From Clostridia bacterium (GTDB lineage: Bacteria > Bacillota > Clostridia > Oscillospirales > RGIG5554): DNA of 64,000 nt. A program made the position numbers and the translations under genes. Of the stretch, positions 15,988-45,300 are shown in pieces. The notes below the pieces were generated by a model. It searched no databases. It saw only the letters and a program-made list of their open reading frames with translations, and had not been told where the DNA came from. The stretch spans positions 1 through 64,000 of the forward strand of contig JAFWAE010000009.1 in NCBI GenBank assembly GCA_017507855.1. The letters are read 5' to 3'. Each line of letters starts with the position of its first letter. Positions within the stretch are counted from its first letter, which is position 1.

Positions 15988-16872
15988 TTACAGCAAGCCG
16001 AATTCTTTCATGCTTTGTGCAAGCTTTTCACGATTGGCCGCAGTCATTTCCACCAAAGGCAAGCGGGGAATACCTACGTTCATCCCCAACAGATTCATGG
16101 CCGCTTTTACGGGAATGGGATTTACCTCTGAAAAAAGATTGGCGATCAAAGCAGACATTTGCACCTGTAAGGCGGCGGCTTCGGCGATTTTTCCGTCAAA
16201 CCAAAGCTTGCAAAGCTTAACCATGGCGGCTGGGCAAAGATTGGCTGCCACGGAAATAACGCCCTTAGCTCCCAGAGAAAGCATGGGAACGGTCAGCTCA
16301 TCACTGCCGCTGTAAACAAAATATTCTTTGCCTGCACGATGCATGGTCTCAGCCACGGAAGCCATATTCCCGTTGGCCTCCTTCAAACCAATGATGTTGG
16401 GATGAGCTGCCAAGCGTGCATTGGTGGCGGGAAGAATATTCAGCCCCGTTCGGGAGGGAACATTATAGGTGATCAACGGCAGATCCACGCGGTCTGCAAT
16501 GTAAGTGTAGTGGGCCACCAGGCCGTCCTGCGTGGTCTTGTTATAATAGGGGGTGACCACAAGCAGGGCATCCGCCCCGGCTTGCTTGGCAAACAAAGAC
16601 ATCTCCAGGGCTGATTGGGTGCAATTGCTTCCCGTGCCCGCAATGACGGGTACGCGACCGTTGGTTTTTTCAATAATAAAACGAATAACCTGCTTTTTTT
16701 CCTCCGTGCTCATGGTGGCGGTTTCCGCCGTGGTCCCGCAGGCAACGATGGCTTGCGTGCCGTTTTCCAACTGCCATTCTACAAGCTCGGCAATTTTATT
16801 AAAATCAATCCCGCTGTCTGTAAAAGGGGTGATCAATGCCACGGCACTGCCTGTAAACACAGGTGTCTTCAT
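15988..16872 (-). CDS. dapA: 4-hydroxy-tetrahydrodipicolinate synthase
   Basis: A 294-residue class I aldolase-type barrel that condenses pyruvate with aspartate semialdehyde. ACGTTAETATMS near residue 45 carries the Thr-Thr pair, YNVPSRTG supplies the catalytic tyrosine, and IIGLKEANGNM contains the Schiff-base lysine. AGGAGG lies 8 bases before the ATG. It sits between asd and dapB in the lysine operon. Confidence 0.96.
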   Translation of the reverse strand: MKTPVFTGSAVALITPFTDSGIDFNKIAELVEWQLENGTQAIVACGTTAETATMSTEEKKQVIRFIIEKTNGRVPVIAGTGSNCTQSALEMSLFAKQAGADALLVVTPYYNKTTQDGLVAHYTYIADRVDLPLITYNVPSRTGLNILPATNARLAAHPNIIGLKEANGNMASVAETMHRAGKEYFVYSGSDELTVPMLSLGAKGVISVAANLCPAAMVKLCKLWFDGKIAEAAALQVQMSALIANLFSEVNPIPVKAAMNLLGMNVGIPRLPLVEMTAANREKLAQSMKEFGLL

Positions 16873-16911: not shown

Positions 16912-17910
16912 TTATTTGTTGTCCTGCTCGATCAGCTTGCGGGCGATCTGCACGGCATTGGCGGCGGCACCCTTGCGGATGTTGTCTGCTACGACCCACA
17001 TGTTGATACCGGATTCCACGCTGTCGTCGCGGCGCAAACGGCCGATAAAGACTTCGTCGTGCCCGGTGGCGTTAATGGCCATGGGGTAGAGCAGCTTGTC
17101 TGGATCGTCTTGCAACACCACACCGGGAGCAGAGGCCAACAGTTGGCGCAGTTCCTTCATGTCGAAGGGCTTTTCAAATTCCACGTTGATGGATTCCGAA
17201 TGGCTGTTGAAAACGGGGACACGCACTGTGGTAGCCGTTACACGCATATCGGGGGTATGCAGGATCTTGCGGGTCTCCTGAATCATTTTCAATTCTTCTT
17301 TGGTATAGCCGCTTTCGGTAAACACGTCAATATGAGGCAGGCAGTTGTTAAAAATGGGGTAGGGGAACTTGGCGGGAGCTTCTCCCTTGATGCCGTTTTC
17401 CAGATCTGCCCAACCTGCCTGACCGGCACCGGACACCGCCTGGTAGGTGGAATACACCACGCGCTTGATGCCGTAACGATCCAAAAGGGGCTTCAAAGCT
17501 ACCATGGCCTGAATAGTGGAGCAGTTGGGGTTGGCAATAATGCCCTTATTCCAAGCGATATCCTCGGGGTTTACCTCCGGAACGACCAGGGGCACCTGGG
17601 GATCCATGCGCCAGCAAGAGGAATTATCGATTACGATACAACCTTTGGAAGCGGCAATGGGGGCAAATTTTTCACTGGTGGAACCGCCGGCAGAAAACAG
17701 GGCAATATCAATACCGCGGTCAAAGCTGTCCTCGCGAAGCTCTTCCACCGTATACTTTTTGCCCATAAAATCCAGCGTTTTTCCTGCAGAGCGGGCAGAC
17801 GCAAAGAGGAAATATTCGGAAGCAGGCAATTGATATTCTTCCAGCACCTTTAAAAAGGTGCGGCCCACCATACCGGTAGCGCCTACAACGGCAATTCTGT
17901 AAGTTTTCAT
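16912..17910 (-). CDS. asd: Aspartate-semialdehyde dehydrogenase
   Basis: A 332-residue NADPH enzyme reducing aspartyl phosphate to aspartate semialdehyde, the branch point to lysine, threonine and methionine. The nucleotide loop is VVGATGMVGRTF; the catalytic cysteine lies in IANPNCSTIQAM. GGAGG sits 9 bases before the ATG. It is the first gene after the lysine riboswitch, so this branch-point enzyme is controlled by lysine although it also feeds the separately encoded hom-thrC genes. Confidence 0.96.
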   Translation of the reverse strand: MKTYRIAVVGATGMVGRTFLKVLEEYQLPASEYFLFASARSAGKTLDFMGKKYTVEELREDSFDRGIDIALFSAGGSTSEKFAPIAASKGCIVIDNSSCWRMDPQVPLVVPEVNPEDIAWNKGIIANPNCSTIQAMVALKPLLDRYGIKRVVYSTYQAVSGAGQAGWADLENGIKGEAPAKFPYPIFNNCLPHIDVFTESGYTKEELKMIQETRKILHTPDMRVTATTVRVPVFNSHSESINVEFEKPFDMKELRQLLASAPGVVLQDDPDKLLYPMAINATGHDEVFIGRLRRDDSVESGINMWVVADNIRKGAAANAVQIARKLIEQDNK

Positions 17911-32856: not shown

Positions 32857-34515
32857 TTATTCATCCAGCATCTCGGTCACCGCGGCACGCGCGGAATCGG
32901 TAATCTCCTCGCCGCTGATCATTCTGGCCAACTCTGAAATACGCGCTTGGCGGTCCAGCTCTGTAACACCGGTAAAAACACGCCCGTCCCGTTCGGTTTT
33001 GGAAATCAACAAATGTGTGTCGGCCTTGGCCCCGACCTGCGCCTGGTGTGTCACACAGAAAACCTGCTTGGCCTTAGAGACCTCCTTTAGTTTAACGGCA
33101 ATTTTCTGAGCTGCACGCCCTGAAACCCCTGTATCTACCTCGTCAAAAATCAGCGTTTGCACACCTTCGCGGTCTGCGATGACATTTTTCAAAGCCAGCA
33201 TCAGGCGGGACAGCTCGCCTCCCGAGGCGATCTTGGATAAGGGCTTCAAAGGCTCGCCGGGGTTGGTGGATACTGTAAATTCCACTTGATCCATGCCCAT
33301 TTCCCCCGGATCCGTTAAAACAAAAGCCGTTTGAAATTGCACCTTCTGCATATCCAAAAAAGCCAATTCTTCCATAATGCGGCGATCCATAATGGCCGCG
33401 GCTTCACGACGTTTTTGCGAAAGAGCCTCTCCACATTGAACCAACTGACCGAAAACTTCTTTTTTCTTCGCTCCCAACAGCTCCAGCTTCCGATCCGAAA
33501 AAGAAATATCGTCCAACTCGTTGCGGCAGCGCTCGCCGTAGGCAAGGATCTCCTCCACCGTTTCTCCGTATTTGCGCTTCAACTGACCGATCAGCTGTAA
33601 ACGCCCTTCGATCCGATCTAAAGAGGCCGTGTCTCCTTCTCCCGCTTCCTCCGCCAGATCGGACAGCTGACGTTCACAGTCATTGAGGGCATACGCGATC
33701 TCCTGCAAGGCCAAAGCAAGCTCCTTGGCCGCCGGGAGTGTGTCTGAGAGGCTGTTTAAAGCCCTTTTGGCTCGGTCTACGCGTTCCTCGGCATCCGACC
33801 CTTCTCCTCCGAAAAGAGCCGTTTGAGCGGCCTCTACGGCCTTGGTGATCTTTTCGGCGTTCACAAGCAAACTGCGCGAATCCTGCAGCTGCTCCTCTTC
33901 GCCTTTCTCCAGGCCTGCCGAATCGATCTCCTTCAGTTGATACTCCAGCATTTCAATACGGCGCTGTTTTTCCTTTTCGTCCATAGTCAAACGCCGCTCC
34001 TGCGCGCATAGATCCATATAGCGGTCATACGCTTCCCCGTAGGCCTCCCGCAGAGAGAGCACCTGGGCATAATCGTCCACAAACTGCAAATGCATTTCGT
34101 TTTGCAGCAATAGATGGCTGCTGTGCTGGCCGTGGATATCCACCAGCAAACGGCCGCACTCCCGTAACATGGCTGAGGTCGCCGCAACACCGTTGACCCT
34201 TGCCGAGCTTCTTCCGTCAGCGCGCACTTCCTTCTGTAACAACAGCTCTCCGTTTTCAACGTCAATGCCCAGGGAAAGAATTTTTTGAACGACCGCCTCG
34301 GAAAGGTCGGTAAACAAAGCCGACACGGAGGCTGCTGCGGCACCGGTACGTACCATCTCTCTGGACGCCTTTTCCCCCAAAATGAGGTTGATAGAGTCGA
34401 TCAGAATGGATTTGCCTGCACCGGTCTCGCCGGTCAGCACCGTAAATCCGCGGTCAAAATCAATATCCGCTTGCTGAATGACAGCCACATTTTCAATATG
34501 CAGATTTCTCAGCAC
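32857..34515 (-). CDS. recN: DNA repair protein RecN
   Basis: A 552-residue SMC-like ATPase that gathers broken DNA ends. Walker A is GETGAGKSILIDSI near the start, followed by two long coiled-coil arms, then the signature ASGGELSRLMLALK and Walker B LIFDEVDTG. I start at GTG 34515 (LRNLHIENVAV) with AAAGGGGG upstream; the frame open to 34542 would overlap that site. It follows argR by 30 bases, the standard Firmicute order. Confidence 0.95.
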   Translation of the reverse strand: MLRNLHIENVAVIQQADIDFDRGFTVLTGETGAGKSILIDSINLILGEKASREMVRTGAAAASVSALFTDLSEAVVQKILSLGIDVENGELLLQKEVRADGRSSARVNGVAATSAMLRECGRLLVDIHGQHSSHLLLQNEMHLQFVDDYAQVLSLREAYGEAYDRYMDLCAQERRLTMDEKEKQRRIEMLEYQLKEIDSAGLEKGEEEQLQDSRSLLVNAEKITKAVEAAQTALFGGEGSDAEERVDRAKRALNSLSDTLPAAKELALALQEIAYALNDCERQLSDLAEEAGEGDTASLDRIEGRLQLIGQLKRKYGETVEEILAYGERCRNELDDISFSDRKLELLGAKKKEVFGQLVQCGEALSQKRREAAAIMDRRIMEELAFLDMQKVQFQTAFVLTDPGEMGMDQVEFTVSTNPGEPLKPLSKIASGGELSRLMLALKNVIADREGVQTLIFDEVDTGVSGRAAQKIAVKLKEVSKAKQVFCVTHQAQVGAKADTHLLISKTERDGRVFTGVTELDRQARISELARMISGEEITDSARAAVTEMLDE

Positions 34516-34545
34516 AGCCCTTGCGCCCCCTTTCAACGTCAAGCC

Positions 34546-35004
34546 TTACTTGCGCTTGATCCACTTTTTCAGCTCTTCCAAAAACGATTCCGCCTCCGCT
34601 TCGGTACGGAGCACGGCAAAAATGGTATCATCTCCGGCCAAAGTGCCCACCACCGAACCTTGCTGAAAGGCATCAATGGAGGAAGCCGCCGCATTTGCCA
34701 TACCGGCGTAGGTTTTGATCACCACTAAATTGCCTGCGGCCTCGGCTGAGATCATGGTTTCCGAAAGAATGAAGCCGTATTTGGCGTTTTTGTTTTTGGC
34801 TTCCTCGGTTTCGGGGATGGTATATTTGGAAACGCCGTGAGAGGTGGGCTGCTTGACCAGACGAAGCTCGCGGATATCCCTGGAAACCGTAGCCTGGGTC
34901 ACAGAAAAGCCTTCTTGCTGCAATAGCTCCAGCAATTTTTCCTGAGTTGTCACCTCGTGTTTACGGATCAACTCAATAATTTTTGTATGTCTGGGTAACT
35001 TCAT
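34546..35004 (-). CDS. argR: Arginine repressor ArgR/AhrC
   Basis: A 152-residue hexameric regulator. The N-terminal winged helix has EKLLELLQQEGFSVTQATVSRDIRELRL. The C-terminal arginine-binding and oligomerisation domain has SIDAFQQGSVVGTLAGDDTIF. It senses arginine and should control the argGHCJBDF operon about 28 kb away in this window. The ATG overlaps the nadK stop by ATGA. Confidence 0.96.
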   Translation of the reverse strand: MKLPRHTKIIELIRKHEVTTQEKLLELLQQEGFSVTQATVSRDIRELRLVKQPTSHGVSKYTIPETEEAKNKNAKYGFILSETMISAEAAGNLVVIKTYAGMANAAASSIDAFQQGSVVGTLAGDDTIFAVLRTEAEAESFLEELKKWIKRK

Positions 35005-35876
35005 ACCTCTTCTCCTTTCTCGCGGCCATGCATTTTTTTATTCAAAAGTCCGATAAAGTGGTATTCCGACATTTTAACGATCTCCAGCGTACAGGTTGAG
35101 AGACGCACGCACACCTTATCCTGCGGCAACAGTTTGAAGGCCTCTGCCCCGTCCACCGTTACGTACGCTTCTCTTTCCTCTTCCGATTCGTTGACGATTT
35201 CCAGCACAGAGTCTTGAGGTAGAATCACCGCGCGACTGCCAAGGGAAAACGGACAAATGGGGGTCAGGCCAATCATCTGCACGGAAGGATCCACAAATGG
35301 CCCGCCGGCAGACAGCGAATAGGCTGTAGATCCGGTAGGGGTAAAAGCGATCAGGCCGTCGGCACGGAAGTCTCCCAAGAAAACGCCGTTACACCAAGCG
35401 GAAAGGTCGATGATTTTGGAAAGGATTCCTTTGGTGATGACTGCATCGTTCAAGCCCGTAGCATGATAGATCGGATGCCCGTTTCTCACCACGTTGACAT
35501 CCAGCAAAGCGCGTTTTTCAATGCGGTAATCCGCCTTTGCCAAGCGTTGAAGTTGGTCTATTTCCTCGGGCTCCAATGAAGTCAAATATCCCAAGCGTCC
35601 TAAATTAATGCCCAAAATCGGGACCTGCGCTTTTGCAGCCGCCGGCGCACAACGAAGCATACTTCCGTCCCCACCTAACACCAGCAACAGCTTACTTTTT
35701 TCCAATGCTCTTTCCAGCTTTTCCAAAACCAGTAAGGAATTGGGCTGGAGAGCCTCAAAGGCGCTTTGGTTGTCTAAAAAGATGGTCCGGCAAAAAGAAG
35801 ACAGGATCTCCACGGCTTTTTTTGTTATTTTAAAATCAGGGTCCTTGTGGGAACCTACGTGTACACAAACCGTCAT
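35001..35876 (-). CDS. nadK: NAD kinase
   Basis: A 291-residue enzyme making NADP from NAD and ATP or polyphosphate. VLGGDGSMLR carries the GGDG motif, GINLGRLGYLT the second conserved block, and FTPTGSTAYSLSAGGPFVDP the substrate site. It overlaps both tlyA and argR by 4 bases (ATGA), so the block is translationally coupled. Confidence 0.95.
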   Translation of the reverse strand: MTVCVHVGSHKDPDFKITKKAVEILSSFCRTIFLDNQSAFEALQPNSLLVLEKLERALEKSKLLLVLGGDGSMLRCAPAAAKAQVPILGINLGRLGYLTSLEPEEIDQLQRLAKADYRIEKRALLDVNVVRNGHPIYHATGLNDAVITKGILSKIIDLSAWCNGVFLGDFRADGLIAFTPTGSTAYSLSAGGPFVDPSVQMIGLTPICPFSLGSRAVILPQDSVLEIVNESEEEREAYVTVDGAEAFKLLPQDKVCVRLSTCTLEIVKMSEYHFIGLLNKKMHGREKGEEV

Positions 35877-36673
35877 AGACGAGCCTCCTTTTTAAAATGA
35901 TCAAAGGTTTCCTCAACCAATGTCTCACAATCTATTTGCGGGTATGAACCACCGTCTTTTGTCAACCAAATCCAATATTCAATATTCCCGTCTCCGCCTT
36001 TTAAGGGCGAAAACGTCATACCGCGCACTGTCAACGGCAGATTTTCAGCCGCTTGGACTATTCCTTGCAGAACTTTGACGTGTACAGTTTTCGACTTTAC
36101 AACCCCGTGAGACGACAAATGTTGCCTTCCCGCTTCAAACTGGGGTTTGATCAACGCCAGCGCCATACCGTTTTCCGGCAAAAGGCGGTAGATCACGGGA
36201 AAAATTCGAGTCAAAGAAATGAAGGAAACATCCACAGAGATCCTCGTAACACCAAAAACCTGTTGCGCATCCAATACACGCGCATCCGTGTTTTCCATAG
36301 AAACAACCCGCTCATCCTCCAGCAAAGAAGGCGCCAGCTGACCGTTTCCCACATCCAAGGCGTACACCTTCGCGGCACCGTGCTGCAACCAACAATCCGT
36401 AAATCCGCCCGTAGAAGCACCGATATCCAGCACGGTAGCCCCTTGAGCATTGACCTGAAAAAAGTCCAAAGCCTTTTCCAGCTTAAATCCGCCACGACCA
36501 ACGTAGCGTTCGTAAATATCGTGAATTTGAATATCCTCTTCTCCGGTTACGGAAAAAGAGGGTTTTGTAACTGTAATGCCATTTACCTTTACGCACTCTT
36601 GCAAGATCAAAATACGGGCACGCTCTCGGCTTTTGCACAAACCATTTTGCGCCAAATAAGCATCAATGCGCAT
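35873..36673 (-). CDS. tlyA: TlyA-family rRNA 2'-O-methyltransferase
   Basis: A 266-residue protein. Residues 1-60 form an S4 RNA-binding domain (MRIDAYLAQNGLCKSRERAR). The rest is a FtsJ/RrmJ-like methyltransferase with the SAM site VLDIGASTGGFTDCWLQHGA and the following DVGNGQL. Members methylate 16S and 23S rRNA, and some act as hemolysins. I start at 36673, overlapping dxs by 11 bases; the open frame to 36754 reads dxs sequence. Confidence 0.93.
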   Translation of the reverse strand: MRIDAYLAQNGLCKSRERARILILQECVKVNGITVTKPSFSVTGEEDIQIHDIYERYVGRGGFKLEKALDFFQVNAQGATVLDIGASTGGFTDCWLQHGAAKVYALDVGNGQLAPSLLEDERVVSMENTDARVLDAQQVFGVTRISVDVSFISLTRIFPVIYRLLPENGMALALIKPQFEAGRQHLSSHGVVKSKTVHVKVLQGIVQAAENLPLTVRGMTFSPLKGGDGNIEYWIWLTKDGGSYPQIDCETLVEETFDHFKKEARL

Positions 36674-38486
36674 TTTCCACGATCTCCTTTGCTTTTTGGG
36701 CAATTTTTTCAGCCGAGAAGCCGCAAAGCTCCCAAAGCTCTGCCACACTACCATGGGGAACGAAGCCGTCTTCTATGGCAGTAACGTGTATGGGCCGTTT
36801 CAAAGCCGCTTGCAAAGCCTGTGCCACACCACCCGCATAATTTCCTTCCTCCACGAAAAAGCAAGGAACGCCGTGCGGCAGCCACCCGGAGATGGTCCCT
36901 GCATCCAAAGGAATCAAGCGATTGATTTTAACCACGGCGCTGGGAAAGGAAAGCTTCTTCCTGGCTGCTTCCACTTCGTTGATAATCGTCCCGTAAGTCA
37001 AAAAAACGATGCGGGGATCCTCATCTCCCCAAAAAGACACCGTGTCAGCCATGCCATCCTGCTGATAGGCCCCCTGAGAACCCCGGGGATAACGAACGGC
37101 GCTTAAAAGCGGGGCTTGTCTGCACAGTTCAAGGGCCGTTTCCAGCTCCTTATAGGAAGCAGGTGCGTAGAGCGTACAATGGGGCACGGAAGAAAGCATT
37201 GCCACGTCAAATACTCCGTGGTGTGTAGCACCGTCGCTTCCCACTAGACCGGCTCTGTCAATGCACAGCGTTAGCGGACAGCCTTGCAGGGCCACATCGT
37301 GCAGGATCTGGTCGTAGCTGCGCTGTAAAAAGGTAGAATATACCGCAAAATAAGGGTGTGCCCCGCCCTTTGCCAAGGCCGCTCCAAACGTAACGGCGTG
37401 TTCCTCGGCGATGCCCACATCAAAGAAACGTTCCGGAAAGCGGGCGGCAAATTCACTCAGTCCCGTGCCGTCTGTCATGGCGGCAGTGATGGCCACCAGG
37501 CCGGAATCGCGTTCTCCCTGTTTGCAAAGCCATTGACCCGCGCGAAAAGAAAAATCCTCCTTGGAAGGTGACGGAGACACGCTGTGATAGCGTTGCGGAG
37601 CCTCTTCGGCCTCTTGCATTCCCTTTCCCTTTACAGTAAGAATGTGCAACAAAACGGGTTTGTTCAACCTTTTGGCGTGCTCCATAAGCACGCACATTTC
37701 TTGAATATTGTGCCCATTGCAAGGTCCCAAATAGGTAAAGCCAAGCTCGGAAAAAAGAGAGCTTTTTCCGTACACCCACCTTTTTAAGCCGTTTTTAAAG
37801 GATTTGATCCCCTTATACAAGGAGTTGCCTACCTTGGGTATCTTCAGCAGGAACTGTTCCGTGGCACGCTTAGCTTGCAGATATCCCTTTTTTCCGCGCA
37901 GTTTTGCCAGGCTTTTGGCCAAAGCCCCCACATTTTGAGAAATAGACATCTCGTTATCGTTAAGCACTACGATCAGCCGTTCGCCGCTTCTTCCGGCATT
38001 GTTCAGCCCTTCAAAGGCCAAACCGCCTCCCAAAGCTCCGTCGCCGATCACAGCCACCGAGGTGCCTTCTTGCCCCTGCAACCGCTTTGCCACGGCAATC
38101 CCCAACGCCGCAGAAACAGACGTGCTGCTGTGCCCCGTTCCAAACGCGTCGTAAAGGGTCTTACTCGGTTCCGGGAAGCCGGATAACCCTCCCATCCTCC
38201 GAAGGGAGGAAAACTCGCTGTAGCGCCCTGTTAAAAGCTTGTGGGCATAGGTCTGATGCCCCACATCAAAAACAAGAGAATCCTCCGGCATTTGAAAAAC
38301 CTTATGCAAGGCAATGGTGCATTCCACCATGCCTAAATTGGAAGCCAAATGGCCTCCGTTGCACAAGGTCGTTTCTATAATTTTTCCGCGGATCTCCGTT
38401 GCCAGCTTTTGCAATGCAGCGTCATTCCAAGAACGAAAGTCCTTCGGAGAATGAATGCTTTCAAGCAAGGGATACGTTTGTTTCAA
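36663..38486 (-). CDS. dxs: 1-deoxy-D-xylulose-5-phosphate synthase
   Basis: A 607-residue thiamine-diphosphate enzyme that starts the MEP isoprenoid pathway from pyruvate and glyceraldehyde 3-phosphate. VFDVGHQTYAHKLLTGR, GTGHSSTSVSAALGIA and the ThDP/Mg site VIGDGALGGGLAFEGLNNAG are present, as is DRAGLVGSDGATHHGVFD in the second half. I prefer the TTG at 38486, 7 bases after AGGTG, over the TTG at 38492, which would abut it. It follows oapA directly. Confidence 0.95.
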   Translation of the reverse strand: MKQTYPLLESIHSPKDFRSWNDAALQKLATEIRGKIIETTLCNGGHLASNLGMVECTIALHKVFQMPEDSLVFDVGHQTYAHKLLTGRYSEFSSLRRMGGLSGFPEPSKTLYDAFGTGHSSTSVSAALGIAVAKRLQGQEGTSVAVIGDGALGGGLAFEGLNNAGRSGERLIVVLNDNEMSISQNVGALAKSLAKLRGKKGYLQAKRATEQFLLKIPKVGNSLYKGIKSFKNGLKRWVYGKSSLFSELGFTYLGPCNGHNIQEMCVLMEHAKRLNKPVLLHILTVKGKGMQEAEEAPQRYHSVSPSPSKEDFSFRAGQWLCKQGERDSGLVAITAAMTDGTGLSEFAARFPERFFDVGIAEEHAVTFGAALAKGGAHPYFAVYSTFLQRSYDQILHDVALQGCPLTLCIDRAGLVGSDGATHHGVFDVAMLSSVPHCTLYAPASYKELETALELCRQAPLLSAVRYPRGSQGAYQQDGMADTVSFWGDEDPRIVFLTYGTIINEVEAARKKLSFPSAVVKINRLIPLDAGTISGWLPHGVPCFFVEEGNYAGGVAQALQAALKRPIHVTAIEDGFVPHGSVAELWELCGFSAEKIAQKAKEIVENAH

Positions 38487-38492
38487 GGGCAA

Positions 38493-39092
38493 TCACCTGC
38501 TTTTTTTGGAAAATGAGAAAAACTCCAGAATTTTGGCCACAGTCAAGAGCATGGCGTTGGCCTTGCGAACTCCCAAAAATTTTCCCGCAGCCTTTCCTCC
38601 CACTGTTACAGAAGAAATGACAGCTGTAAAAAGGGCGGAATACCACAGCATTCCCTTTTGGATTCCCGCCTCCTGCAAAATTCCCATTAAAATGGCCGCA
38701 GCCGCCGTGCCACTGATTACACCCGCAATATCTCCTACCACGTCGTTGCAAAAATTAGCCACTTTTTCCGAATTTTGGATCAGCCAAAGGGCCTTTTTAG
38801 CGCCGGGCAGCTTGCGGGAAGCCATGGCGTGAAAAACGGTGGGATCCGCCGAAACTACGGCCATGCCCAACGTATCAAACAGCACGTTCAGCATAATCAC
38901 CAACAACAAAACCAGCAAAGAAAAGAAGGTGTTTAGCTCGGAGATCAAGTTTTCGGAAATCAGCGAAATCACCACAGAGATCAAAAAGGTACATATCAGT
39001 ATTTTGACGACCCAGGAGGTCTCGCCGTTTCGTTTATTCTTTTTATTGGCGGAAGGGCGGATATCCTTTTCCTCGCCTTTTTTATCTACCAA
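38493..39092 (-). CDS. oapA: OLE-associated membrane protein OapA (putative)
   Basis: A 199-residue membrane protein with an N-terminal charged region, two hydrophobic segments (VKILICTFLISVVISLISE and FFSLLVLLLVIMLNVLFDTL), a soluble stretch (ADPTVFHAMASRKLPGAKKAL) and a C-terminal hydrophobic segment (VISGTAAAAILMGIL). It resembles the DUF21/CNNM-type Mg2+ transporter core. In Bacillus halodurans the protein OapA, which binds OLE RNA, has this character and lies between OLE and dxs, exactly as here. The start is the TTG at 39092, 8 bases after GGAGG. The assignment rests on position and topology rather than a search. Confidence 0.78.
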   Translation of the reverse strand: MVDKKGEEKDIRPSANKKNKRNGETSWVVKILICTFLISVVISLISENLISELNTFFSLLVLLLVIMLNVLFDTLGMAVVSADPTVFHAMASRKLPGAKKALWLIQNSEKVANFCNDVVGDIAGVISGTAAAAILMGILQEAGIQKGMLWYSALFTAVISSVTVGGKAAGKFLGVRKANAMLLTVAKILEFFSFSKKSR

Positions 39093-39124
39093 CTCAGTTA
39101 CCTCCAAAATAAAAAAAGAAAATG

Positions 39125-39713
39125 GTGGCCGCTCCATAAGTAAACCTTGCGCCTTAGGTCAAGTAGGGTTTCCCCGTTATCTACTCCTCGTCGCCGCAGA
39201 AGCGGTTCCCCTTTAAAGATAACGGCGGAGCGTCTCCGCATCCGCGACTTGATTGCCACTTAGTACGCACCGCAATCCTTATGGTGCATCAGCCTAGGAG
39301 TTTTCCCCACAGTACAATCCTTTTCTTAGCCTATTTCGCAGAAACGGTTTCAACGGACGATAGCGTTTTGAGCCGCGGCCGCAACTTAAACGCGTGATTC
39401 CGTATCCTCCGCACCCGCTACAAGGCAGGCTACTCTGCTCACAGCGCCAAAATGCACCGCAAAGCAGGTTTAATCTCGTCCCGTAGCCGCCCTCACCGCC
39501 TAAGCGTGTCTTGTTAAGGCCACAAAGCCGAGTCTCCTGGCGAATGGGACGGATTTCGCATGCCATTGCAAAACGCCCATTTCGCTTTTTCTTTCAGCAC
39601 CCACCAGAAACTGGCATTTCAAGCAAGCACAAAAAGTTTCATCGATATGCCCTTGTGCGGATTTTTAGCCCCGCCTTCGGAATAGGTTGTACTGACTAGG
39701 ATACTGTGCCACC
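39125..39713 (-). ncRNA. ole: OLE RNA (ornate, large, extremophilic) candidate
   Basis: About 590 bases without a credible gene lie between a consensus promoter and oapA. They are GC-rich and full of paired segments. CCGTTATCT/AGATAACGG (39174-39182 with 39217-39225) encloses CCGC-TTCT-GCGG. CAGTACAA (39310-39317) is perfectly complementary to TTGTACTG (39687-39694) some 370 bases away, tying the two ends together. Length, strand and position next to oapA and dxs match known OLE RNAs, one of the largest structured bacterial RNAs, linked to membrane protein OapA and to Mg2+ and alcohol stress. The ends are estimated from the promoter and the oapA ribosome binding site. I could not check the consensus. 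Confidence 0.82.
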
Positions 39714-39719
39714 ATCTCA

Positions 39720-39748
39720 AGTATACCATAGCTTTTATGCATTTTCAA
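39720..39748 (-). promoter_or_regulatory. Promoter of the OLE-oapA-dxs-recN transcript
   Basis: Minus-strand TTGAAA and TATACT with a 17-base spacer; the RNA would begin near 39713. Confidence 0.8.
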
Positions 39749-39778
39749 GCGAATTTTGTATATTTTTTCTTTTTTATA

Positions 39779-39833
39779 AAAAAACAGCAAGCAGAGTTTG
39801 TGGAGGATTCTCCATATCTGCTTGCCGTTTTTT
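39779..39833 (-). terminator. Terminator of the heat-shock operon
   Basis: On the minus strand AAAAAACGGCAAGCAGA / TCTGCTTGCTGTTTTTT with a loop of about 20 bases. It overlaps the stop codon of the B12-activation-like gene. Confidence 0.75.
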
Positions 39834-40536
39834 ACATATCGCAGTTCACAGCTCCATAAGGGGTACCCACAAAGGTCGCACGGCGATTTGGACAATCCTG
39901 CCTGGGACAGTAGCTACAGTTTTCATAATGCTCTTTTCCATGAAAGAGAATGCCTGAAACACTTTTAATGGGAAACATCAAGAAGCTGTCGCTTAGGCGG
40001 ACACCCACCGTTTCTTCGGGATTCTCTACCAGTTTAAAAAGCATAGGCTGTTCGGAAATGGGCCACACCGGCAGGGATCCCGGATTCAAATGCGAAAGCG
40101 CACTTTCTTCTACACCTGCATCCTCGGCAATGGCAGCGATCACCTTTTTCTGTACGGCAGCCAGCGCTTGCAGCTGAATACATTCCAGCCAAAAGTCCGC
40201 CAACGGATCTCCAAAGGTATCCATTTCATCCAGCTCTTTTCCGCAGGTAGCCACATAAGGATATACAACCTGCGTTCCTTGAAACTGGTCGTCCATCAAG
40301 GCGCAGGAAACCGGTTGTTCACCCAATTTTGCTACCTTTTCTCCCCCCGCATCAAAAATAACGGGAAGCTTGGACATGACCGCTTTGGGAAGAGCGATTT
40401 TTTCTGCCTGATCTGCAAAATCCAAAATCTCCTCTTCCAGTTCGTCGCCCTCTTCTATATGGGCGCTTTGCAAAAGGAGTTTGCGATCGACCGTAAAATC
40501 TGTTATACGAATGATTTCAGATGTATTCGTCGTCAT
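39832..40536 (-). CDS. Cobalamin-dependent methionine synthase activation-domain-like protein
   Basis: A 234-residue protein resembling the reactivation domain of MetH, the part that binds SAM to remethylate oxidised B12. SHLNPGSLPVWPISEQ and GVRLSDSFLMFPIKSVSG match that fold. The C-terminus adds a cysteine motif, CSYCPRQDCPNRRA, which could hold a metal cluster. The gene codes for no other MetH domain. Its ATG overlaps the dnaJ stop (TAATG), making it the last gene of the heat-shock operon. In clostridia such stand-alone activators are usually tied to corrinoid proteins; a link to heat shock is unexplained. Confidence 0.82.
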   Translation of the reverse strand: MTTNTSEIIRITDFTVDRKLLLQSAHIEEGDELEEEILDFADQAEKIALPKAVMSKLPVIFDAGGEKVAKLGEQPVSCALMDDQFQGTQVVYPYVATCGKELDEMDTFGDPLADFWLECIQLQALAAVQKKVIAAIAEDAGVEESALSHLNPGSLPVWPISEQPMLFKLVENPEETVGVRLSDSFLMFPIKSVSGILFHGKEHYENCSYCPRQDCPNRRATFVGTPYGAVNCDM

Positions 40537-41687
40537 TACTTTTTCCCCTTCTTATCCTTCAAACGGTCAAAAAAGCTTTTGTTGTTTTTAAACTGTGCAT
40601 CCCCGCAGGTTTCCGCGAATTCACGAAGCAGGCTTTTTTGTTTTTCGTTCAAGTTGGTTGGGACTTCCACATGAACCGTAAAGACCAGTTCTCCGCGGCC
40701 GCCACCGTTGATATTGGGAATTCCCTTCCCTTTCATAGAAAAGCTTGTGCCCGTTTGAGTGCCCTCGGGCAAGGAAAAGCTGTAAGGCGTTTCCAGCGTA
40801 GGAATTTCGATCTTGGCGCCTAAAGCTGCATCTACGATGCGTACGGGAATGTCGCAGTAAATGGAGGTGCCTCTTCGTTCGAAAATCGGGTGGGGACGCA
40901 TGGAAATGGTAATAAACAAATCTCCGGGAGCTCCTCCGCGGCGCCCGGCGCTACCTTGCCCGCGTACGGAAACGGTCTGGCCGTCATCAATACCTGCCGG
41001 AATAGAAATATCCAAAGTTTTGGAGGCACGCACCTGGCCCGCCCCTTTACAGCGCGAGCAGGGCGTTTTAATAATTTTACCCGTACCCTGGCAACGATCA
41101 CAGGCTTTGGTCGTAGAAAACGTGCCAAAAGCCGTTCTTTGCTGCTGCTGAATACGGCCGCGGCCTCCGCAAACGGGACAGGTTTCCGCAGAAGTTCCCG
41201 CCGCACAGCCGCTACCGGAGCATTCACTACAGCTTTCTACCCGTTGATACGTTACGCTCTTCTTGCAACCGAAAGCCGCTTCTTCAAAGGAAAGCACCAA
41301 CCGCATGTGGATATCCTCACCGTTTACGGGTGCATTGGAATTTCTGCGCTGGCTTCCCCCGCCAAAAAAGTTTTCTAAAATATCGTCAAACCCGCCAAAT
41401 CCGCCGAAGCCGCTGAAGCCACCAAAGCCCCCGCCTTGGCCGGCGTTGAAATTGGGATCCACTCCCGCAAAGCCAAACTGATCGTAACGGGCTCTTTTTT
41501 CACTGTCGCTGAGAACCTCGTAGGCCTCGGAAGCTTCCTTAAATTTTTCTTCGGCGGTTTTATCGCCGGGGTTCATATCGGGATGGTATTTTTTGGCAAG
41601 CTGGCGGTAGGCGCGCTTGATGGCGTCCCCATCGGCAGACTTGTCCACTCCTAATACCTCATAATAATCGCGTTTTTCCTGAGCCAT
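40536..41687 (-). CDS. dnaJ: Chaperone protein DnaJ
   Basis: A 383-residue type I DnaJ. The J domain carries [11 protein letters not shown], followed by a Gly/Phe-rich linker. Four zinc-binding repeats follow ([33 protein letters not shown]), then the substrate-binding C-terminal domains. It stimulates DnaK. I use the ATG at 41687; a GTG lies three codons upstream. Confidence 0.97.
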
Positions 41688-41781
41688 TATATTCACCCAT
41701 TATCAAAAAATACGCCACGTGGGACAGAGATCAACTCTGCCCCACCGTAGTCATCGTTGTGAATTTTGCGTTTTCGGAAAC

Positions 41782-43599
<1,818 letters not shown>

Positions 43600-43657
43600 T
43601 CATTCCTCCGTAAATTAGTTCAAAATATTTGAAACAAGCAAAAGCTGTTTGTTTTCG

Positions 43658-44158
43658 TTAATTTGCTACCTTGACCATAGCCGCGCGGAGCAGCCGTTCC
43701 TCACAGCGGTACCCCTTGGCCAAAACCTCTACCACAACCTGTTCTCCCAAGCTTTCGTCTTCTACGTGCATAACTGCGTGGTGAACGGAAGGATCAAAGG
43801 GGATGCCGGTTTCAGCAATCTCGGTGATCTTCAGCTGATCAAAAACGGTTTTGAGCTGCTTTTGAATCAGCAAAACGCCCTCCAAGAACGCCTTATCCGT
43901 ACATTCAGCCATTAAAGCGCGATCAAAATTATCTGCCACTGCCAGCATGGTCTTGGCCGCCTCGCAAATTCCTGCTGCGTAAAGGCCTTCCTTTTCCTTG
44001 GCACTGCGCTTGCGGAAATTATCGTATTCCGCCAGCAGGCGTAGATAGCGGTCGTTCTGCTCTTCCAGGCGCGCCTTCAATTCCTCGGCGACGGAAGCAG
44101 ATTCTGAAACGGCCTCGGCTTGCTGCACCTCAGGCGTTTCTTGTTCTTTTTTACTCAT
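43658..44158 (-). CDS. grpE: Nucleotide exchange factor GrpE
   Basis: A 166-residue protein releasing ADP from DnaK. A long N-terminal coiled coil (LKARLEEQNDRYLRLLAEYDNFRKRS) precedes the beta wing with the family signature ending in FDPSVHHAV. Fits between hrcA and dnaK in the standard operon. Confidence 0.96.
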   Translation of the reverse strand: MSKKEQETPEVQQAEAVSESASVAEELKARLEEQNDRYLRLLAEYDNFRKRSAKEKEGLYAAGICEAAKTMLAVADNFDRALMAECTDKAFLEGVLLIQKQLKTVFDQLKITEIAETGIPFDPSVHHAVMHVEDESLGEQVVVEVLAKGYRCEERLLRAAMVKVAN

Positions 44159-44190
44159 GTTCCTATGTCCCTCTCTTTATTTTTTCGGGG

Positions 44191-45300
44191 TTATAAAAGA
44201 TCATCTACAGCCGCTGTCAACCGACGAATGCGACTTAGGAGAATATCCTCACGGCTCTCCTCCACGCTTCGGTGAAGCAGACGGCTGATATTTTTGGCAA
44301 AATACGCGCTGTGAGCGATGACACGACTATAGTCCAACCGCGTAGGCCCAATGATGCCAAAGGTTCCCATAAACCCATCCTCGGTAACGTAGGAAGTAAT
44401 AACCGAGGAAACACATTCCAGCTCCTCCAGCGGGTTTTCCGAACCGATATACACGCTGATACTGTTTTCGGGAACAGCAGAAAGCAGAGTGCGCCCTTTT
44501 TGGGGATCCTGAAAGGCGGAAGCGATATCGCGAATGGTTTTTGGTGCATTTAATTCGGGCTTGGACAAAAGGTGAAGCACCCCGGCCGTATGCACACGGT
44601 CTTCGGAAAAAGCGGCAATGCAACGGTACACGGCGCGAAGTACGGGCGGGCTGACGGAGGCGTATTCCCCCATGGCACCTTCCAGCTTCAGGACGTCTGC
44701 CAGGGTCAGTTTTTCCACGTTCTTTCCAACCAAGCCCCTGTTAAGCACGGTAAACAGGCGTTGCAGAAGCTCGGTCTCCAGCAAAATATCAAAACGGCAA
44801 CGACGGCTTTGCAGCAGCCCCGCGTCCGTCAACACCATCAACAAGAAAGAATGGGAATCGATCCGCAACAGATCAAGGCGGCGGATTTGCATATTGCGCA
44901 TTTGCGGCGTGACCGTCACAGTCATAAGCCCCAGCGCTTCGCTGACAACCTCACCCGCTTGCTCTACCAAGCGGTCCGGCTCAGAAAGCCGGCTTTGCAT
45001 AATGCTGTTGATAGCCTGCATTTCGCCAACAGACAAGCGATATTTTGTGAGCAAATGATTGACATAATACCTGTACCCTGCCTGTGACGGTACGCGCCCT
45101 GCCGAAATATGAGGTTGCAAAAGAAGCCCCATGGCTTCCAGCTCGGCCATCTCGTTACGTACAGTAGCGGAAGAAACCCCCAACTTGGAAGTCCCAAGCA
45201 GGGTTTTGGAGCCGATCGGCTCTCCCGTTTGGATATAGGCATCGGTGATGATCTTTAAAATAGCCGCCTGACGTGTTGTCAGCATTGCGGGATAGGCCAT
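44191..45300 (-). CDS. hrcA: Heat-inducible transcription repressor HrcA
   Basis: A 369-residue repressor of class I heat-shock genes. The N-terminal winged helix has LTTRQAAILKIITDAYIQTGEPIGS and SSATVRNEMAELE; the rest is the GAF-like and dimer domain with GLLQPHISAGRVPS. It binds the CIRCE palindrome at 45319-45345 and is kept active by GroEL. First gene of the operon. Confidence 0.96.
   Translation of the reverse strand: MAYPAMLTTRQAAILKIITDAYIQTGEPIGSKTLLGTSKLGVSSATVRNEMAELEAMGLLLQPHISAGRVPSQAGYRYYVNHLLTKYRLSVGEMQAINSIMQSRLSEPDRLVEQAGEVVSEALGLMTVTVTPQMRNMQIRRLDLLRIDSHSFLLMVLTDAGLLQSRRCRFDILLETELLQRLFTVLNRGLVGKNVEKLTLADVLKLEGAMGEYASVSPPVLRAVYRCIAAFSEDRVHTAGVLHLLSKPELNAPKTIRDIASAFQDPQKGRTLLSAVPENSISVYIGSENPLEELECVSSVITSYVTEDGFMGTFGIIGPTRLDYSRVIAHSAYFAKNISRLLHRSVEESREDILLSRIRRLTAAVDDLL

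Follow-up and report, generated by a model that had tools for sequence, protein, structure and literature searches.

OLE RNA and its protein partner OapA at the head of a dxs gene block in an Oscillospirales genome

What RNA lies ahead of dxs in this 64,000-nt stretch of clostridial DNA (the window), and what might it do for its host? The earlier note, made from the letters of the window, had proposed an OLE RNA followed by its partner gene oapA. OLE RNA is a large, membrane-bound bacterial noncoding RNA, among the largest without an established chemistry. To our knowledge, a chemical function or activity, if there is one, has been established for no OLE RNA; proposals extend from a ribozyme at one extreme to a membrane-spanning RNA at the other. 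Known members number 8,585 non-redundant sequences (PMC12286853). We hold it nearly certain that the window encodes an OLE RNA together with OapA (Table 1). The RNA falls within this already known class rather than founding a new one.

Table 1. Positions of the features discussed, with the basis for each assignment
Feature	Position	Strand	Basis
ole, full-length OLE RNA	39109..39728	(-)	RF01071, 435.8 bits, model 1-616 of 616; 31-sequence comparison
P1 stem, 5' arm	39708..39715	(-)	pairs with 39122-39129; covariation in 31 sequences
P1 stem, 3' arm	39122..39129	(-)	pairs with 39708-39715; covariation in 31 sequences
9-bp stem of 3' module, 5' arm	39217..39225	(-)	pairs with 39174-39182; read from sequence
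9-bp stem of 3' module, 3' arm	39174..39182	(-)	read from sequence
Likely promoter of ole	39720..39748	(-)	TTGAAA-17-TATACT, TG before second hexamer; position also used in relatives
Intrinsic terminator of upstream dnaK operon	39775..39835	(-)	-29.2 kcal/mol, z -8.3, then U run
oapA	38493..39092	(-)	TTG start, 199 aa, CNNM-domain membrane protein; PF01595, 33.4 bits; family alignment
dxs	36663..38492	(-)	TIGR00204, 584.5 bits; start from ORF list, may be further in
tlyA	35873..36754	(-)	TIGR00478, 212.3 bits; ORF start probably too early, overlaps dxs
nadK	35001..35876	(-)	PF20143, PF01513
argR	34546..35004	(-)	TIGR01529, 135.4 bits
recN	32857..34542	(-)	TIGR00634, 516.1 bits
OapB candidate	G000:C11:198681-198986		between map and infA, other contig; profile match to OapB
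OapC/YbxF candidate	L008:1441-1734		directly before rpsL; solved YbxF (PDB 4lck), E 1e-12

Identity and architecture of the RNA

The Rfam covariance model for OLE, RF01071, matches the minus strand end to end (E = 1.2e-124; gathering score, 50 bits). The matched span measures 620 nt, compared with about 600 nt expected of the class, and the RNA proper probably occupies about 39122–39715, a segment whose fold reaches z = -2.7 relative to shuffles. The interval proposed earlier does contain an OLE RNA, but ole alone covers only the matched span, and that interval also takes in oapA and the promoter. A single OLE copy was found in the source genome, and no further Rfam family matched at E ≤ 1 within 36000–44500.

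Elsewhere in the window, a lysine riboswitch (RF00168; 18030–18237, minus strand; 92.9 bits) directly precedes asd-like (16912–17910) and dapA-like (15988–16872) genes, named from sequence reading, and represents ordinary lysine-biosynthesis control. A tRNA gene (RF00005; 9850–9921, minus strand; 62.7 bits) with the anticodon loop CUCCUAA probably carries the anticodon CCU (Arg).

Both ends of the RNA are joined by stem P1, in which AUGGUGGC pairs perfectly with GCCACCAU over 8 bp; this is the long-range match singled out in the earlier note. The probability that the two ends of a shuffled sequence match in this way is 1.6%, and covariation in the aligned sequences, rather than the rarity of the match, is the decisive evidence for the stem: 220 of 248 cells are paired across the 31 sequences (mean 162 and maximum 186 in 1,000 shuffles), with pairs alternating among GC, AU, UA, and GU. 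The 9-bp stem noticed in the 3' module is likewise present, formed by CCGUUAUCU and AGAUAACGG on direct reading of the sequence.

The loops through which OLE RNAs dimerize appear to be largely kept. Cryo-EM structures place the dimer contacts at L4, L5/L6, and L9.3 (PMC12286853, PMC12265935); here L4 (CUAAAAAU) and L6 (CAAUGGCAUG) are unchanged, and L9.3 retains its GGCC palindrome. L5 reads GCCA, four bases in place of the usual GCCCA, with GCC still able to pair with GGC; one relative, L024, also has an L5 shorter by one base. J4a/5 (AUCGAUGAA), part of a kink turn proposed as the OapC site (PMC9723947, PMC12286853), is unchanged. These helix and loop names are putative, having been put on Rfam positions by order.

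The RNA is nevertheless divergent: the optional hairpin at model positions 423–434 is absent, the P7 loop carries a 14-nt insertion, and 11 of 211 near-invariant columns (at least 95% conserved across the OLE RNAs of 30 relatives) depart from the consensus, the highest count among the 31 sequences (median 2), in a family represented by a single genome in the comparison; the changes may or may not be neutral. Lineage-specific changes also include a G-to-A change just inside P1 and an altered base before GUGCG. Given the changed columns, some contacts of this RNA may differ. It is unlikely, in our estimate, that the shorter L5 kissing loop, these two base changes, the lost hairpin, and the dnaK operon upstream together mark an altered dimer or protein interface; if they did, the OLE particle of the source lineage would be built or regulated differently.

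The same divergence, the missing optional hairpin, and the small genome could also describe a nonfunctional OLE copy, still recognizable and drifting in a reduced genome. We consider such decay highly improbable: the other 200 near-invariant columns are intact, P1 is paired perfectly, a promoter is present, the oapA frame is open with every invariant residue, likely OapB and OapC genes are retained, and no replacement MpfA was detected. The sole member of its family in a comparison is, moreover, expected to look more divergent.

OapA and the organization of the locus

The 199-aa protein encoded after ole is, on sequence grounds, OapA, because it combines a CNNM domain (above the Pfam cut-off) with the residues of the family and a position right after ole. 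Its TTG start at 39092 is preceded by GGAGG. In an alignment of 23 proteins—this one and 22 relatives, collected by similarity or as neighbors of OLE RNAs—all invariant residues are present (F72, D73, G76, C115, D117, G120, D121, S127, G128, T163, G166, and K171), and length, position, and phylogenetic profile are those of the OapA family; the window protein differs in being only 31–39% identical to the aligned relatives. MpfA/CorC Mg2+ exporters have the CNNM domain in common with OapA, which lacks CBS and CorC_HlyC domains. The earlier note had set two outcomes against its own proposal, a missing covariance-model match and a protein unrelated to OapA; the match proved to be full-length and the protein to be OapA. 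A search of IMG/VR returned no OapA relatives and hence no sign of phage carriage.

Among the 30 relatives' loci, oapA lies directly downstream of ole in 29, and the remaining locus stops at a contig end. The block expected behind oapA was borne out, with dxs, tlyA, nadK, argR, and recN each identified by a domain or TIGR match. This order, starting from ole, is whole, or can be traced to the end of the available stretch, in most of 24 relatives. The exceptions are L066 and L080 (no dxs detected after oapA), L075 (no tlyA), L071 and L083 (no downstream match of any kind), L002, L003, and L005 (no argR match), and L004, where ole sits elsewhere. PMC12265935 mentions ArgR as a possible partner of OLE, citing unpublished results from the Breaker laboratory.

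L004 was initially a candidate for oapA without ole; this was rejected, as its whole genome (G147, about 0.9 Mb) carries OLE at another place. The two genes are thus apart in G147, and in G001, G025, and G028 each sits on a separate contig, so linkage of ole and oapA is not obligatory. The longest (784 nt) and lowest-scoring (304 bits) OLE RNA of the survey, at G028:C5:182997-183780, is among these. In a further genome, G005, two OapA homologues (G005:C41:15707-16273 and G005:C94:6632-7174) accompany one OLE match, which may reflect contamination, strain mixture, or duplication.

The earlier note had also assigned ole its own promoter with 17-base spacing. Support for this element comes from the comparison with relatives and not from the promoter scan, which by itself was not significant (1 site found, 2.3 expected by chance): of the 31 loci, 19 have a promoter-like site matching at least 9 of 12 positions immediately upstream of ole, compared with only 7 of 186 control windows, which favors a promoter here. 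Upstream, at 39832–45300 on the minus strand, lies an hrcA-grpE-dnaK-dnaJ operon whose strong terminator immediately precedes the ole promoter. Its last gene (39832–40536) encodes a 234-aa protein whose match to the B12-dependent methionine synthase activation domain (PF02965, barely over the cut-off) is confined to the end of that domain. None of the 24 relatives checked has hrcA-grpE-dnaK-dnaJ beside ole.

With ole directly between a promoter and oapA, and no terminator found from that promoter to oapA, the RNA could be read as a long structured 5' leader that acts mainly in cis on oapA-dxs. We give this very little credence: even the genomes that keep ole and oapA apart (G001, G025, G028, and G147) always carry both, and the OLE RNA of Halalkalibacterium halodurans is abundant, processed at its 3' end, and equipped with trans-acting partners (PMC11332333, PMC12265935). 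Abundance of OLE and a single transcript with the downstream genes are known for H. halodurans only (PMC12265935); by analogy with that species, the free-standing OLE RNA favored here would be abundant in the source organism as well.

Partner genes and the distribution of MpfA

The source genome (1.55 Mb; 86% complete) offers candidates for both further protein partners. OapB is absent from the window, as the earlier note had said, and the candidate on another contig was located by reading the gap between map and infA and then backed by a profile. Taken alone, its sequence matches solved OapB (PDB 7k9b) over residues 4–82 at E = 5.5e-4, and archaeal L14e proteins score slightly higher over a shorter stretch; when 14 relatives within the order are combined in a profile, 7k9b is matched at E = 2.1e-14 (next best, 9e-4). 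This gene likely encodes OapB, a small KOW-type protein that would bind the RNA at P12.2/P13. The Pfam KOW model misses it in the source genome and finds two genes only: L24, beside the uL14 gene, and a 189-aa open frame whose length suits NusG. The gene before rpsL is likely OapC/YbxF, an L7Ae-family kink-turn protein; it scores 70 bits with PRK13602, below the cut-off of 113, and its YlxQ-type paralogue adjoins nusA.

Across the order, OLE RNA and OapA coincide in their distribution. A scan of contigs with a single OapA sequence had yielded 4 loci only, L004 among them, and a survey of 147 whole genomes was used instead. OLE RNA occurs in 57 of these and OapA in exactly the same 57; OapB relatives are found in 51 of the 57 versus 51 of the other 90. 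MpfA-type proteins (PF03471 over its cut-off) show the opposite pattern, occurring in 8 of 57 OLE-positive versus 81 of 90 OLE-negative genomes (Fisher P = 2.7e-21), a correlation in which relatedness of the genomes is only partly controlled. Within families the contrast persists (stratified z = -6.9, with 7 OLE-negative, MpfA-lacking genomes having no family assignment), and in families f7, f13, f16, f17, and f19 some genomes carry OLE and others MpfA. Fernando and Breaker (2024) described near-complete OLE–OapA co-occurrence, partial co-occurrence with OapB/OapC, and anticorrelation with MpfA (PMC11332333); our survey agrees with theirs and adds little beyond it.

An MpfA-type protein accompanies OLE/OapA in G034, G040, G045, G083, G109, G110, G123, and G137; five of these eight genomes belong to one family, f12. 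They would be useful for asking whether the two systems work side by side.

A CNNM domain and the anticorrelation with MpfA might suggest that OapA transports metal on its own, as a CNNM-type protein, and merely happens to neighbor the RNA. We assign this a close to negligible probability: a protein acting independently would not be expected to occur in all the OLE-bearing genomes among the 147 and in none of the others, and OapA of H. halodurans binds OLE RNA (reported in PMC12265935).

Type, proposed working, and significance

The RNA is of the full-length type, because it aligns through P7, P8, and P9 and the genome has OapB and OapC candidates. With the full-length OLE RNAs of Halalkalibacterium halodurans and Clostridium acetobutylicum it shares the whole model, P1, and helices matching P4–P9, and with those of its relatives the placement of oapA and the gene cluster behind it; the hairpin, P7 insertion, L5, and near-invariant changes described above set it apart. 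OLE variants 1 (TANB77) and 2 (RF39) likewise come from small genomes of uncultured lineages (PMC11332333). However, P7–P9 are shortened in variant 1, and variant 2 has lost P7 and P8, whereas the hairpins at these positions align in full here; most of the lineages with these variants, moreover, largely lack OapB and OapC (PMC11332333).

How the particle would work is drawn by analogy with members studied in other species. OLE RNA would dimerize through its conserved loops, OapA would hold it at the membrane, and the RNA would bind OapB and OapC; the resulting particle would aid in coping with stress, notably in Mg2+ balance. No MpfA was detected in the source genome, nor any other CNNM protein or CorC_HlyC domain, and because the assembly is 86% complete this absence is not certain. 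On this gene content, the best-fitting role for the OLE–OapA particle is to do at least some of what MpfA does elsewhere in Mg2+ homeostasis, a proposal to which we give roughly even chances.

By itself, the locus leaves existing knowledge unchanged. It contributes one more natural sequence, a divergent one, from a family without any other genome in the comparison. The survey indicates that OLE/OapA and MpfA substitute for each other even among genera within a single family, and this exchange within families would make the proposed swap between an RNA–protein particle and an Mg2+ exporter testable in related species.
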